From positions 1 to 37,228 of the forward strand of contig JAQGHV010000167.1 in NCBI GenBank assembly GCA_028288785.1: 37,228 bases of DNA, in the 5' to 3' direction. This DNA comes from Rhodospirillales bacterium. GTDB lineage: Bacteria > Pseudomonadota > Alphaproteobacteria > Acetobacterales > Acetobacteraceae. Both the position numbers and the translations under genes were made by a program. This document shows, piece by piece, positions 17,632 to 21,242 of this stretch (the stretch's first letter is position 1; every line of letters starts with the position of its first letter). The notes below the pieces were generated by a model that saw only the letters and a list, made by a program, of their open reading frames with translations, was not told the origin of the DNA and did no database searches.

Positions 17632-17716
17632 GCGGGCGTGGTGGAATTGGCAGACACGCTGGATTTAGGTTCCAGTGGCGCAAGCCGTGGGGGTTCAAAT
17701 CCCTCCGCCCGCACCA
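17632..17716 (+). tRNA. tRNA-Leu (anticodon TAG)
   Basis: GCGGGCG...CGCCCGC-A-CCA acceptor, CTGGA-TTTAGGT-TCCAG anticodon arm, long variable arm, GGGGG-TTCAAAT-CCCTC-type T arm. Confidence 0.95.
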
Positions 17717-17766: not shown

Positions 17767-19527
17767 ATGCAGGTGACCGAAGTTGCGAACGAAGGCCTCA
17801 AGCGGGCTTTTTCCATCACGGTTTCGGCGACCTCCATCGCCGCCGATCGCGACAAGCGCCTGGCGGTGCTCGGCCGTGACATGAAGCTGCCGGGCTTCCG
17901 CCCCGGCAAGGTGCCCGCCCATATCGTCAAGCAGCGCTACGGCCAGGCCGTCATGGGTGAGGTGCTCGAGCAGTCGGTCGAGGAAGCCTCGCGCCAAGTC
18001 GTGACCGACCGGGGCCTGCGCCCCGCGCAGCAGCCCAAGATCGAGGTGGTGAACTTCGCCGATGGCGCCGACCTGGAATTCCGAATGGATTTCGAGATCC
18101 TGCCGGAAATTCCGATGCCTGACTTCTCGTCCATCGCGATCGAGCGCCTGAAGGCGGAGCCGAGCGAGGAGGCGATTCACAAGGCCCTGGAGAACATCGC
18201 CAGCCGCAATCGTGGCTTCGAGGATGTCGAGGAAGTTCGCCCGGCCGTCGTGGGCGACGTCGTCTCCGCCGATTTCGTGGGCCGCGTGGTGCCGAACCTG
18301 ATTGCCAATCCCGGCGTCGAGGGCGCCGGCGCGCCGGCGACGCTGCCGACCGGTTTCGAGGCAGTCGACGGCGCGAGCGTGACTGTTATCGGCACCGGCC
18401 GTGACGGTGGCTTCGCCTATGTCGACCTGCAGCTGGCCGATGGCGCCGTGGCGCTGGGTGGCGCCGTTGAGCTCACTTCCGGAGAGGGCGTGCTGTCGGC
18501 CCGACTATCGGTCCAGGATGGCAGCGCCGAGATCGCCTTCGGCGTGCAGGAAATTGGCGCCGAGGGCATCCTCCGCACCCTGACCACCGCGCTGGCACCG
18601 TTCGGCGCCGACCGCGCCGAGGCACGCTTCACGCTGACCGGCGACGCGACAGCGACTCGTCCCTTGCTGATCGTGACGGGTGGCCCGGTGACGCTGCGCG
18701 TCGCGCTGCCGCGCTACATGGCCGGTGACGCCGTGCTGGCCGAGCCCTTCCCCGGCGGCACCGCCGAGGATGCGCCCATCGAGATCGGTGGCGGCAACTT
18801 CATCCCCGGTTTCGCCGAGCAGCTCGAGGGCATCAGCCCCGGTGAGCAGCGCGACGTGCTGGTGGCCTTCCCGGTGGCCTACGGTTCCAAGGATTTGGCC
18901 GGCAAGGAAGCCGTCTTCGCGATCACCGCGAAGGGCCTCAAGCGCGCGGTGACCAAGCCGATCGACGACGAGCTCGCCAAGGGCATCGGCTTCGAGGGGC
19001 TGGACCCGCTGAAGAACGTGATCCGCGAGCAGCTGCAGCGCGAATACGACCAGATGAGCCGCATGCGGGTGAAGCGCCTGCTGCTCGACAAGCTGGCCGA
19101 GCAGGCGAACTTCGCGGTGCCCGAAGGCATGGTCGAGGCCGAGTTCAAGGCGATCTGGGATCGCATCGAGGAAGACCGCAAGGCGGGCAATGTCGACTCC
19201 GACGATGCCGGCAAGGATGACGACGCGCTCAAGGCCGAATACCGCACCATCGCCGAGCGCCGCATCCGCCTGGGCCTGATGCTCTCCGAGATTGGGCGCA
19301 CCAACAACGTCCAGGTTTCCGCCGAGGAAATGCAGCGGGCGATGCGCCAGGAAGCCGGCAAGTACCCGGGCCAGGAGCAGATGGTGATCGACTTCTTCCG
19401 CAAGAATCCGCAGGCGGCCGAGGGTCTTCGCGCCCCGATCTTCGAGGAGAAGGTGGTCGACTTCATGCTGGAGCTGGCCCAGGTGACCGACCGCGTCGTG
19501 CCGCCCGAGGAAATCGCGGCGACCTAG
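17767..19527 (+). CDS. tig: trigger factor with a large in-frame insertion in the PPIase domain
   Basis: MQVTEVANEGLKRAFSITV...LPGFRPGKVPAHIVKQRYG (ribosome-binding signature), split PPIase VVSADFVGRV//PFPGGTAEDAPIEIGGGNFIPGFAEQLEGISPGEQRDVLVAFPVAYGSKDLAGKEAVFAI, C-terminal chaperone domain ending FEEKVVDFMLELAQVTDRVV. Confidence 0.95.
   Translation: MQVTEVANEGLKRAFSITVSATSIAADRDKRLAVLGRDMKLPGFRPGKVPAHIVKQRYGQAVMGEVLEQSVEEASRQVVTDRGLRPAQQPKIEVVNFADGADLEFRMDFEILPEIPMPDFSSIAIERLKAEPSEEAIHKALENIASRNRGFEDVEEVRPAVVGDVVSADFVGRVVPNLIANPGVEGAGAPATLPTGFEAVDGASVTVIGTGRDGGFAYVDLQLADGAVALGGAVELTSGEGVLSARLSVQDGSAEIAFGVQEIGAEGILRTLTTALAPFGADRAEARFTLTGDATATRPLLIVTGGPVTLRVALPRYMAGDAVLAEPFPGGTAEDAPIEIGGGNFIPGFAEQLEGISPGEQRDVLVAFPVAYGSKDLAGKEAVFAITAKGLKRAVTKPIDDELAKGIGFEGLDPLKNVIREQLQREYDQMSRMRVKRLLLDKLAEQANFAVPEGMVEAEFKAIWDRIEEDRKAGNVDSDDAGKDDDALKAEYRTIAERRIRLGLMLSEIGRTNNVQVSAEEMQRAMRQEAGKYPGQEQMVIDFFRKNPQAAEGLRAPIFEEKVVDFMLELAQVTDRVVPPEEIAAT
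18289..18744 (+). other. inserted jelly-roll/CBM-like domain within trigger factor (approximate residues 175-326)
   Basis: VPNLIANPGVEGAGAPATLPTGFEAVDGASVTVIGTGRDGGFAYVDLQLAD...GPVTLRVALPRYMAGDAVLAE lies between the two halves of the FKBP-like domain and is absent from canonical trigger factors such as that of E. coli (SVDGEEFEGG). Confidence 0.8.
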
Positions 19528-19744: not shown

Positions 19745-20521
19745 GTGTCTGACATCATTCTCGAGACCGTGGGCCTGTCGAAGGAATTCCGGGGTTTCGT
19801 TGCGGTCAGCGATGTGAGCCTGCGCGTGAAGCGCGGCACCATCCACGGGCTGATCGGTCCAAATGGCGCCGGCAAGACCACCTTCTTCAATTTGCTCACC
19901 AAGTTCCTGCCGCCGACGCGCGGGACCATCACCTATAACGGTCGCGACATCACCGCCATGAAGTCGGCCGATGTGGCGCGACTCGGCCTGGTCCGAAGCT
20001 TCCAGATCTCCGCGGTGTTCCCGCATTTGACGCTGCTGGAGAATGTGCGGGTCGCGCTGCAGCGCCAGCGCGGTGGCAGCTTCGATTTCTGGCGGGCCCA
20101 GGGCCTGCTTCGCCGCTACGACGAGCGCGCCCGCGAGCTGCTGGAGGATGTCGGCCTCACCCCCTGGGCGACCATCACCGCCGGCGAGCTGCCCTATGGC
20201 CGCAAGCGCGCGCTGGAAATTGCGACAACCCTCGCGCTAGACCCGGTGATGATGCTGCTTGATGAGCCGACGGCTGGCATGGCGCATGAGGATGTCGACC
20301 GCATCGTGGCGCTGGTGAAGCGCGTGGCCATCGGGCGCACGGTCCTGCTGGTGGAGCACAATCTGAAGGTCGTCGCGGGTCTGTGCGACCAGATTACGGT
20401 GCTCACGCGGGGCCGCATCCTGGCTGAGGGCGACTACGCCGCGGTCTCGCGCAACCCGGAGGTCATCGCCGCCTACCTCGGCACCGAGACCGACACTGTG
20501 GGAGTCACGGCGCATGGCTGA
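19745..20521 (+). CDS. livG: branched-chain amino acid-type ABC transporter ATP-binding protein (LivG-like)
   Basis: GLIGPNGAGKTTFFNLLTKFLPPTRG Walker A, LPYGRKRALEIATTLALDPVMMLLDEPTAGM Walker B; GTG start. Confidence 0.9.
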   Translation: MSDIILETVGLSKEFRGFVAVSDVSLRVKRGTIHGLIGPNGAGKTTFFNLLTKFLPPTRGTITYNGRDITAMKSADVARLGLVRSFQISAVFPHLTLLENVRVALQRQRGGSFDFWRAQGLLRRYDERARELLEDVGLTPWATITAGELPYGRKRALEIATTLALDPVMMLLDEPTAGMAHEDVDRIVALVKRVAIGRTVLLVEHNLKVVAGLCDQITVLTRGRILAEGDYAAVSRNPEVIAAYLGTETDTVGVTAHG

Positions 20522-21242
20522 CGGCATGATCCGCGCCGATGCGGACGCCCTGCTCGCGCTGCGCGGGCTCGAGGCCTGGTACGGCGAGAGCCACGTCCTG
20601 CACGGTGTCGATATCGACATCAAGCCGGGCGAGGTCGTGACGCTGCTCGGCCGCAACGGCGCGGGCAAGACCACGACGCTGCGCGCGATCATGGGCCTGG
20701 TCGGACGTCGCGCCGGTTCCATCCGCCACAATGGCGTGGAGCTGATCTCCGCGAGATCCGACGTCATCGCGCGCAAGGGCATTGGCTATTGCCCTGAGGA
20801 GCGCGGCATCTTCGCCTCGCTCGACGTGACCGAGAACCTGATGCTGCCTCCGGTCGTCATGCCGGGCGGCCTCAGCCTCGACGAGATCTACACGCTGTTT
20901 CCGAACCTGAAGGAGCGCGCGCGCAGCCAGGGCACCAAGCTCTCGGGTGGCGAGCAGCAGATGCTGGCGATCGCGCGCATCCTGCGGACCGGGGCCAAGC
21001 TGCTACTGCTCGACGAGCCCTCCGAGGGTCTCGCGCCGGTCATCGTGCAGCAGATCGGCCGCATGATCCGGGAGATCAAGTCGCGTGGCTTCACCGTGCT
21101 CCTGGTCGAGCAGAATTTCCGTTTTGCGCAGACCGTCGCGGACCGGCACTACGTCATGGAGCACGGCCGCATTGTCGACATGGTGAAGAACGAGGAACTG
21201 CTGACCTCGCTCGACCGCCTGCACCAATACCTCGGCGTGTGA
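20514..21242 (+). CDS. livF: branched-chain amino acid-type ABC transporter ATP-binding protein (LivF-like)
   Basis: LLGRNGAGKTTTLRAIMGLV and LSGGEQQMLAIARILRTGAKLLLLDEPSEGLAPVIV; overlaps livG stop. Confidence 0.92.
   Translation: MADGMIRADADALLALRGLEAWYGESHVLHGVDIDIKPGEVVTLLGRNGAGKTTTLRAIMGLVGRRAGSIRHNGVELISARSDVIARKGIGYCPEERGIFASLDVTENLMLPPVVMPGGLSLDEIYTLFPNLKERARSQGTKLSGGEQQMLAIARILRTGAKLLLLDEPSEGLAPVIVQQIGRMIREIKSRGFTVLLVEQNFRFAQTVADRHYVMEHGRIVDMVKNEELLTSLDRLHQYLGV

Follow-up and report, generated by a model that had tools for sequence, protein, structure and literature searches.

Trigger factor, a chaperone of three domains, is considered highly conserved. The tig gene located in the analyzed window, a stretch of 37,228 nucleotides from a bacterium of the Acetobacteraceae, raises the question of how such a protein has come to carry an additional domain within its prolyl isomerase (PPIase) domain, from where this domain could originate, and which role, if any, it might play there. 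The preliminary description of this locus reported a 586-codon open reading frame whose PPIase domain is interrupted by a segment of ~150 residues. The segment was likened to jelly-roll modules of the carbohydrate-binding (CBM) and phage-tail types and was placed in a loop different from that occupied by the insert-in-flap (IF) domain of SlyD.

An Intact Trigger Factor with an Interrupted PPIase Domain

The reading frame was recovered as described, with the sequence quoted earlier (Table 1). It scored 369.8 bits against the NCBIfam equivalog model of tig (cut-off 180.2), and the Pfam domains Trigger_N, FKBP_C, and Trigger_C followed one another in the order typical of trigger factors, with FKBP_C matching only the later part of its domain (residues 327–387, i.e., positions 24–92 of the 94-position profile). 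The G-F-R-P-G-K motif (G43–K48), aligned to the GFRKGK loop of E. coli, is invariant in 48 relatives, as are F345, I346, F349, Y372, and F384, while F328 is nearly so; these six residues align to the FKBP domain of E. coli and presumably line the hydrophobic pocket of the PPIase. Judged by its sequence, the window ORF is a genuine trigger factor whose ribosome-binding and PPIase residues are retained despite the insert.

Table 1. Features of the tig locus in the window (positions are those of the whole stretch).
Feature	Position	Strand	Residues	Basis and remarks
tRNA-Leu (tag)	17632..17716	+		ARAGORN; immediately precedes tig, listed for context
tig, trigger factor with internal domain insertion	17767..19527	+	586 aa ORF	Pfam and NCBIfam
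Trigger_N, ribosome-binding domain	17767..18198	+	1–144	Pfam, E 1.3e-37
G-F-R-P-G-K ribosome-binding signature	17893–17910	+	43–48	Within Trigger_N
FKBP (PPIase) domain, first part	18214..18285	+	Ends ...VVSADFVGR	Alignment with insert-free relatives and E. coli trigger factor
Inserted beta-sandwich domain (predicted fold)	18286..18747	+	174–327	Length comparison, hhalign, AlphaFold2, Foldseek
FKBP (PPIase) domain, second part	18748..18951	+	F328-P-G-G to ~395	FKBP_C profile 24–92; E. coli alignment
Trigger_C, C-terminal chaperone domain	19000..19473	+	412–569	Pfam, E 1.4e-36

Comparison with relatives delimited an insert of ~154 residues between G172-R173 and F328-P-G-G, at a beta-hairpin turn of the FKBP domain that comprises 5 to 15 residues in the relatives; the boundaries proposed previously (18289–18744) are correct to about one codon on either side. 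The interruption of the PPIase domain was confirmed by this alignment as well as by the lengths at the insertion site, which are distinctly bimodal across 109 distinct trigger factors of the Acetobacteraceae: 5–14 residues (64 proteins) or at least 154 residues (45 proteins), with no protein featuring a length between 20 and 100 residues. The inserts span 154–184 residues in the listed set and 158 residues in one protein added later. In the canonical trigger factors of E. coli and Vibrio, the alignment runs to G-x-V and restarts at x-F-x-G-G, in agreement with the short turn formerly ascribed to the E. coli protein, and most bacterial trigger factors are devoid of the insert.

The tRNA-Leu gene precedes the start codon of tig by 50 bases, and in several relatives the frames ahead of tig look tRNA-like as well. 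Downstream of tig, the window harbors two genes of a branched-chain amino acid ABC transporter (19745–21242). In the regions compared (L091–L170), the same two genes follow tig in Plastoroseomonas and Neoroseomonas, and the usual tig–clpP–clpX order is encountered in Belnapia and Siccirubricoccus. Hence, the ancestral order was broken in the Plastoroseomonas/Neoroseomonas branch.

A second, diverged trigger-factor-like paralog was also detected in P. arctica (L171:1043-3010), in the genome of the window itself (L175, minus strand, and L176; contigs C69 and C348), and in a Neoroseomonas-like genus, g71 (L172, L173, and L174). In Plastoroseomonas, the paralog has lost both GFRPGK and a recognizable FKBP match. 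The tail-type domain described below is present in the paralog of P. arctica and in the L172–L174 copies; the copy from the genome of the window is without it and reads ...WAEPDPLSAAPAPHPALRAERF.

Predicted Fold of the Insert

Modeled with AlphaFold2 from 48 sequences, the whole protein reached a mean pLDDT of 89, with the insert predicted to be all-beta. When the insert was modeled alone (39 sequences), its core displayed a pLDDT of 90–96 at a pTM of 0.78. A Foldseek search of the PDB retrieved trigger factor together with CBM22, CBM61, CBM16, CBM4, a hyaluronan-binding module, and phage tailspikes, and the search of a viral library retrieved phage tail proteins. The matches to the sugar-binding modules had a probability of 1.00 and an E-value of about 1e-5 at 9–19% identity, with TM-scores of up to about 0.6, a moderate level at which the matches speak to the fold class. 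According to these models, the insert is a confidently predicted separate beta-sandwich of a CBM-like fold, neither disordered nor part of the FKBP fold. Searched alone, it had no match in Pfam, NCBIfam, or PHROGs even at an E-value of 10, and the sequence search of the PDB yielded chance-level matches only.

Kinship with Phage Tail and Baseplate Proteins

The sequence groups the insert with a domain, as yet without a name, that occurs in phage tail and baseplate proteins. In hhalign, the profile of this tail domain (nine sequences) was aligned to that of the insert (thirteen sequences) over 168 columns with a probability of 99.8% and an E-value of 2.6e-28; the divergent inserts of Roseomonas and Siccirubricoccus were aligned to the tail profile as well (E 6.7e-15 and 3.7e-12). 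In hmmsearch, the tail profile matched nearly all of the inserts, down to 3e-26, and produced zero matches in 9,609 shuffled ORFs and zero in insert-free trigger factors. Applied to the window insert alone, it scored 40.7 bits with the alignment covering residues 4–60 of 154; the insert of P. hellenica was aligned along nearly its full length.

Elsewhere in the Acetobacteraceae, the insert has weak matches that share the same starting residue and lie inside prophage-like tail proteins, which display the motif N-L-x-R-N-P-R-A-E-G-A-x-x-G-T-P-G-T-x-P-T-x-W ... V-x-G-T-G ... G-x-P-Y-[VI]-D-x-R ... T-L-R-[IV]-x-x-P-Q-L-E. One of the tail domains is 39.7% identical to an annotated tail protein of Azospirillum phage Cd. 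Other domain-bearing relatives belong to PHROG tail families (5939, 1419), adjoin a tape-measure gene, or are fusions with Mu gp46 or gp48, and large viral proteins contain up to seven repeats of the domain. Searches of viral contigs starting from insert or tail-domain sequences gave no confirmed match; the tail sample was collected from them with a DNA pattern for N-P-R-A-E-G-A and is therefore biased to domains with that motif. Many weak matches in unrelated Acetobacteraceae ORFs (e.g., L042, L046, L048, L055, L061) were rejected as chance hits, these ORFs being alanine-rich and not tail proteins.

Two further loci (L043:1123-2430 and L198:5362-7734) encode baseplate proteins of the Mu gp48 type that are split by the same domain, so that Pfam Phage_Mu_Gp48 is matched in two separate stretches. 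The domain thus tolerates splicing into hairpins or loops.

Overall, the early guess of a jelly-roll of the CBM or phage-tail type is supported along three independent lines, namely the profile alignments, the all-beta models, and the structural matches; both likenesses have stood, the direct link to phage tail proteins being stronger than the generic one to CBMs. At the same time, the domain of the window does not reside in a virion protein: it is encoded within the gene of a housekeeping chaperone, the neighboring genes examined include none of phage type, and a tail copy of the domain was sought but not found in the genome of the window (assembly ~91% complete). The window insert is a homologue of the tail domain and not itself a tail protein. 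A 158-residue insert found at the same site in another genome (L088, G181) had no significant match to the tail profile, which points either to very strong divergence or to replacement by a different sequence.

Distribution of the Insert

A profile built from five insert-bearing proteins was searched in 398 Acetobacteraceae genomes, 373 of which gave a trigger factor match. A full-length match including the insert at the same site was obtained in 28 of these 373 genomes, representing 8 of 97 genera, and the named carriers include Plastoroseomonas, Neoroseomonas, Pararoseomonas, Humitalea, Siccirubricoccus, Roseomonas rosea, R. aerilata, and a Belnapia MAG. Among 60 relatives, the insert was present in three genomes of the genus of the window (its own included) and in two others (G005, G007); in the other alphaproteobacterial families among the 60, the halves of the trigger factor abut wherever both were matched. 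In 385 genomes drawn from the class, the insert profile matched no trigger factor except that of the window. The same search revealed a match at 7.7e-18 in a 402-aa frame from another alphaproteobacterial family (L241, G582:C37), which is probably another tail-type protein.

The insert is, therefore, not strain-specific, and within the sampled Alphaproteobacteria the trigger-factor insert is confined to the Acetobacteraceae. Its occurrence in at least eight genera shows that it is no local oddity. A literature search, with subscription journals mostly outside its coverage, returned no paper that connects trigger factor to Roseomonas or to an insert of the CBM type; the insertion is undescribed in the literature searched, and its carriers constitute one branch of acetic-acid-type bacteria.

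Selection on the Insert and Its Possible Role

In close pairs of sequences, dN/dS amounts to 0.10–0.42 for the insert vs. 0.05–0.23 for the core, i.e., the insert is under purifying selection and evolves faster than the core. The scenario that we prefer starts with the in-frame capture of a complete beta-sandwich of the phage tail/baseplate type by the FKBP domain, at the tip of its beta2–beta3 hairpin. The autonomous folding of the insert would let the FKBP domain close around it. Upon adaptation to the cytosol, with aromatic and S/T/N residues becoming scarcer and charged residues more abundant, the reading of glycans would probably have been lost, and the insert may now serve as an accessory surface holding clients or a partner beside the prolyl isomerase, in parallel with the unrelated IF domain of SlyD. 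FKBP12 is documented to become an efficient folding catalyst when chaperone domains are grafted into one of its loops close to the active site (PMC11013033). The combination of capture, cytosolic adaptation, and an accessory client- or partner-binding surface in trigger factor is assigned a probability of roughly 0.5.

A dN/dS below 1 would also be expected from selection merely for a folded and soluble insert. The main rival explanation accordingly holds that a tail domain captured by accident, folding autonomously and doing little harm, is simply tolerated, with selection maintaining its folding and solubility only. The faster evolution of the insert is in line with this explanation, as is its patchy loss or absence in near-sister species (L117 vs. 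L138, L067 vs. L130, L095 vs. L140), which indicates that the insert is dispensable; the degenerate paralog, lacking the domain in the genome of the window and possessing it in P. arctica, points in the same direction. In the most divergent Roseomonas pairs, the inserts are 30–36% identical at a core identity of 89–96%, and the dN/dS of the insert is near 1. Such an extreme divergence makes a conserved binding role doubtful, and the difference of the insertion loop from the flap also speaks against this role. On the other hand, a mere passenger would hardly be expected to persist in all 27 of the 27 sampled rows of the tree belonging to the diverse Plastoroseomonas/Neoroseomonas branch, or to be constrained down to a dN/dS of 0.10; moreover, its host is a housekeeping gene, the sole trigger factor found in the genome of the window to carry the ribosome-binding motif. 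Passive tolerance is judged somewhat unlikely, and an accessory binding surface remains the preferred interpretation.

Evolutionary History

A different kind of alternative concerns the history of the insert and not its function: the domain may have been captured repeatedly and independently or may represent a cassette exchanged between tig alleles by recombination. On the core tree, parsimony requires 10 changes of the insert state, with near-sisters differing from each other, and the inserts of close Roseomonas relatives are as dissimilar as stated above. In some pairs, the silent-site divergence of the insert far exceeds that of the core (0.51 vs. 0.20, p = 1e-5; 0.56 vs. 0.16, p = 5e-5), suggesting that insert exchange between lineages is likely in places; in other pairs, the silent-site divergence of the insert and the core is equal, contrary to this alternative. 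In the unrooted insert tree, all of the trigger-factor inserts branch apart from all of the 58 tail domains with a support of 91 (not above 95), and the sub-branches mirror the core tree. Both features favor one capture with losses, and repeated recent captures from tails are disfavored by this tree; being unrooted, it is compatible with two independent captures. Furthermore, clade members without the insert often retain a lengthened linker of 10–14 residues (e.g., LVEGEGDEATVGEP) resembling both ends of the inserts of their sisters, as expected of a scar left by a loss.

Repeated capture or cassette exchange as the principal history is considered unlikely. Most simply, the sequences are explained by a single capture, probably in an ancestor of the Roseomonas-type Acetobacteraceae, after which the domain was lost several times and/or tig alleles were exchanged.

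Proposed Adaptation to the Cytosol

Relative to tail domains found in the same family of bacteria, the inserts are enriched in acidic residues (10.8 vs. 6.2%) and, likewise, in basic ones, and depleted of S/T/N (13.2 vs. 22.7%, ~60% of the tail level) and aromatics (5.4 vs. 7.1%); the insert of the window has no Trp. This shift fits a move from the virion surface to the cytosol and argues against glycan binding. One could still suppose that the insert binds a carbohydrate or a ligand resembling a glycan and so links trigger factor to virion proteins or to a partner that bears sugars, given its CBM-like fold, the Foldseek probability of 1.00 to sugar-binding modules, and its derivation from tail proteins, which in many cases attach to glycans of the host. 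This supposition seems highly improbable, since trigger factor is cytosolic by family, the aromatic and Trp content is reduced, and many CBM-like folds of phages are structural. Finally, the view of the segment as a disordered stretch, a part of the FKBP fold, or an artefact of assembly or frameshift is refuted by the confident all-beta models, by the same-place insert in independent isolates and MAGs, e.g., Plastoroseomonas arctica (core 94%, insert 84% identical to the window) and P. hellenica, and by the FKBP domain of the relatives, which is complete without the insert.

Implications and Comparison with Known Systems

A phage-tail-type domain is built into the isomerase domain of trigger factor in at least eight genera, where it is under purifying selection, and has apparently been lost in close relatives. 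These bacteria offer natural pairs of one chaperone with and without the domain, suited to testing the effect of an added domain on co-translational folding. The insert suggests that the core machinery of the cell can take up a virion module, and it exemplifies a natural insertion site of the FKBP domain other than the flap, which can be of use in protein design.

The canonical trigger factor (Tig of E. coli, PDB 1w26) shares with the window protein the Trigger_N–FKBP–Trigger_C order, the GFRxGK loop, and the PPIase core residues; the window protein differs by the additional ~154-residue beta-sandwich (as predicted) in the beta2–beta3 turn of the FKBP domain. With the phage tail/baseplate domain, the insert has in common the motifs N-L-x-x-N-P-x-x-E-G-A, P-T-x-W/F, V-x-G-x-G, G-x-x-Y-V-D-L, and T-L-R-[IV]-x-x-P, the length range, and even the habit of being inserted, as in gp48. 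Unlike its phage counterparts, it resides in a cytosolic chaperone, is single and not tandem, is more charged, and has fewer aromatic and S/T/N residues. The likeness to CBM22, CBM16, CBM61, CBM4, and the binding module of hyaluronate lyase lies in the beta-sandwich fold found with Foldseek; it is known from the predicted fold, at 9–19% identity, and no curated CBM profile of Pfam matched the insert at E-values up to 10. One tail relative matched CBM_4_9 at E 0.02, below the cut-off.

The nearest parallel in design is the IF domain of SlyD, which likewise represents a whole domain placed in a loop of the FKBP domain and a plausible client-binding add-on near the PPIase site. The IF domain, of about 65 residues, has another fold and another origin, and its site is the flap, defined as the position between A-Y-G and L-x-F (PMC11013033). 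As anticipated in the preliminary description, the loop used in the window protein is a different one: its insert starts at residue 174, and its flap is short and normal (A371-Y-G-S-K-D-L-A-G-K-E-A-V-F384). One may tentatively think of the insert as a virion-derived beta-sandwich that now works as a client- or partner-binding module, fast-diverging or swapped between lineages. If true, it would represent a second evolutionary route to the SlyD design, i.e., an FKBP domain with an inserted chaperone domain, achieved in another loop and from a viral source.
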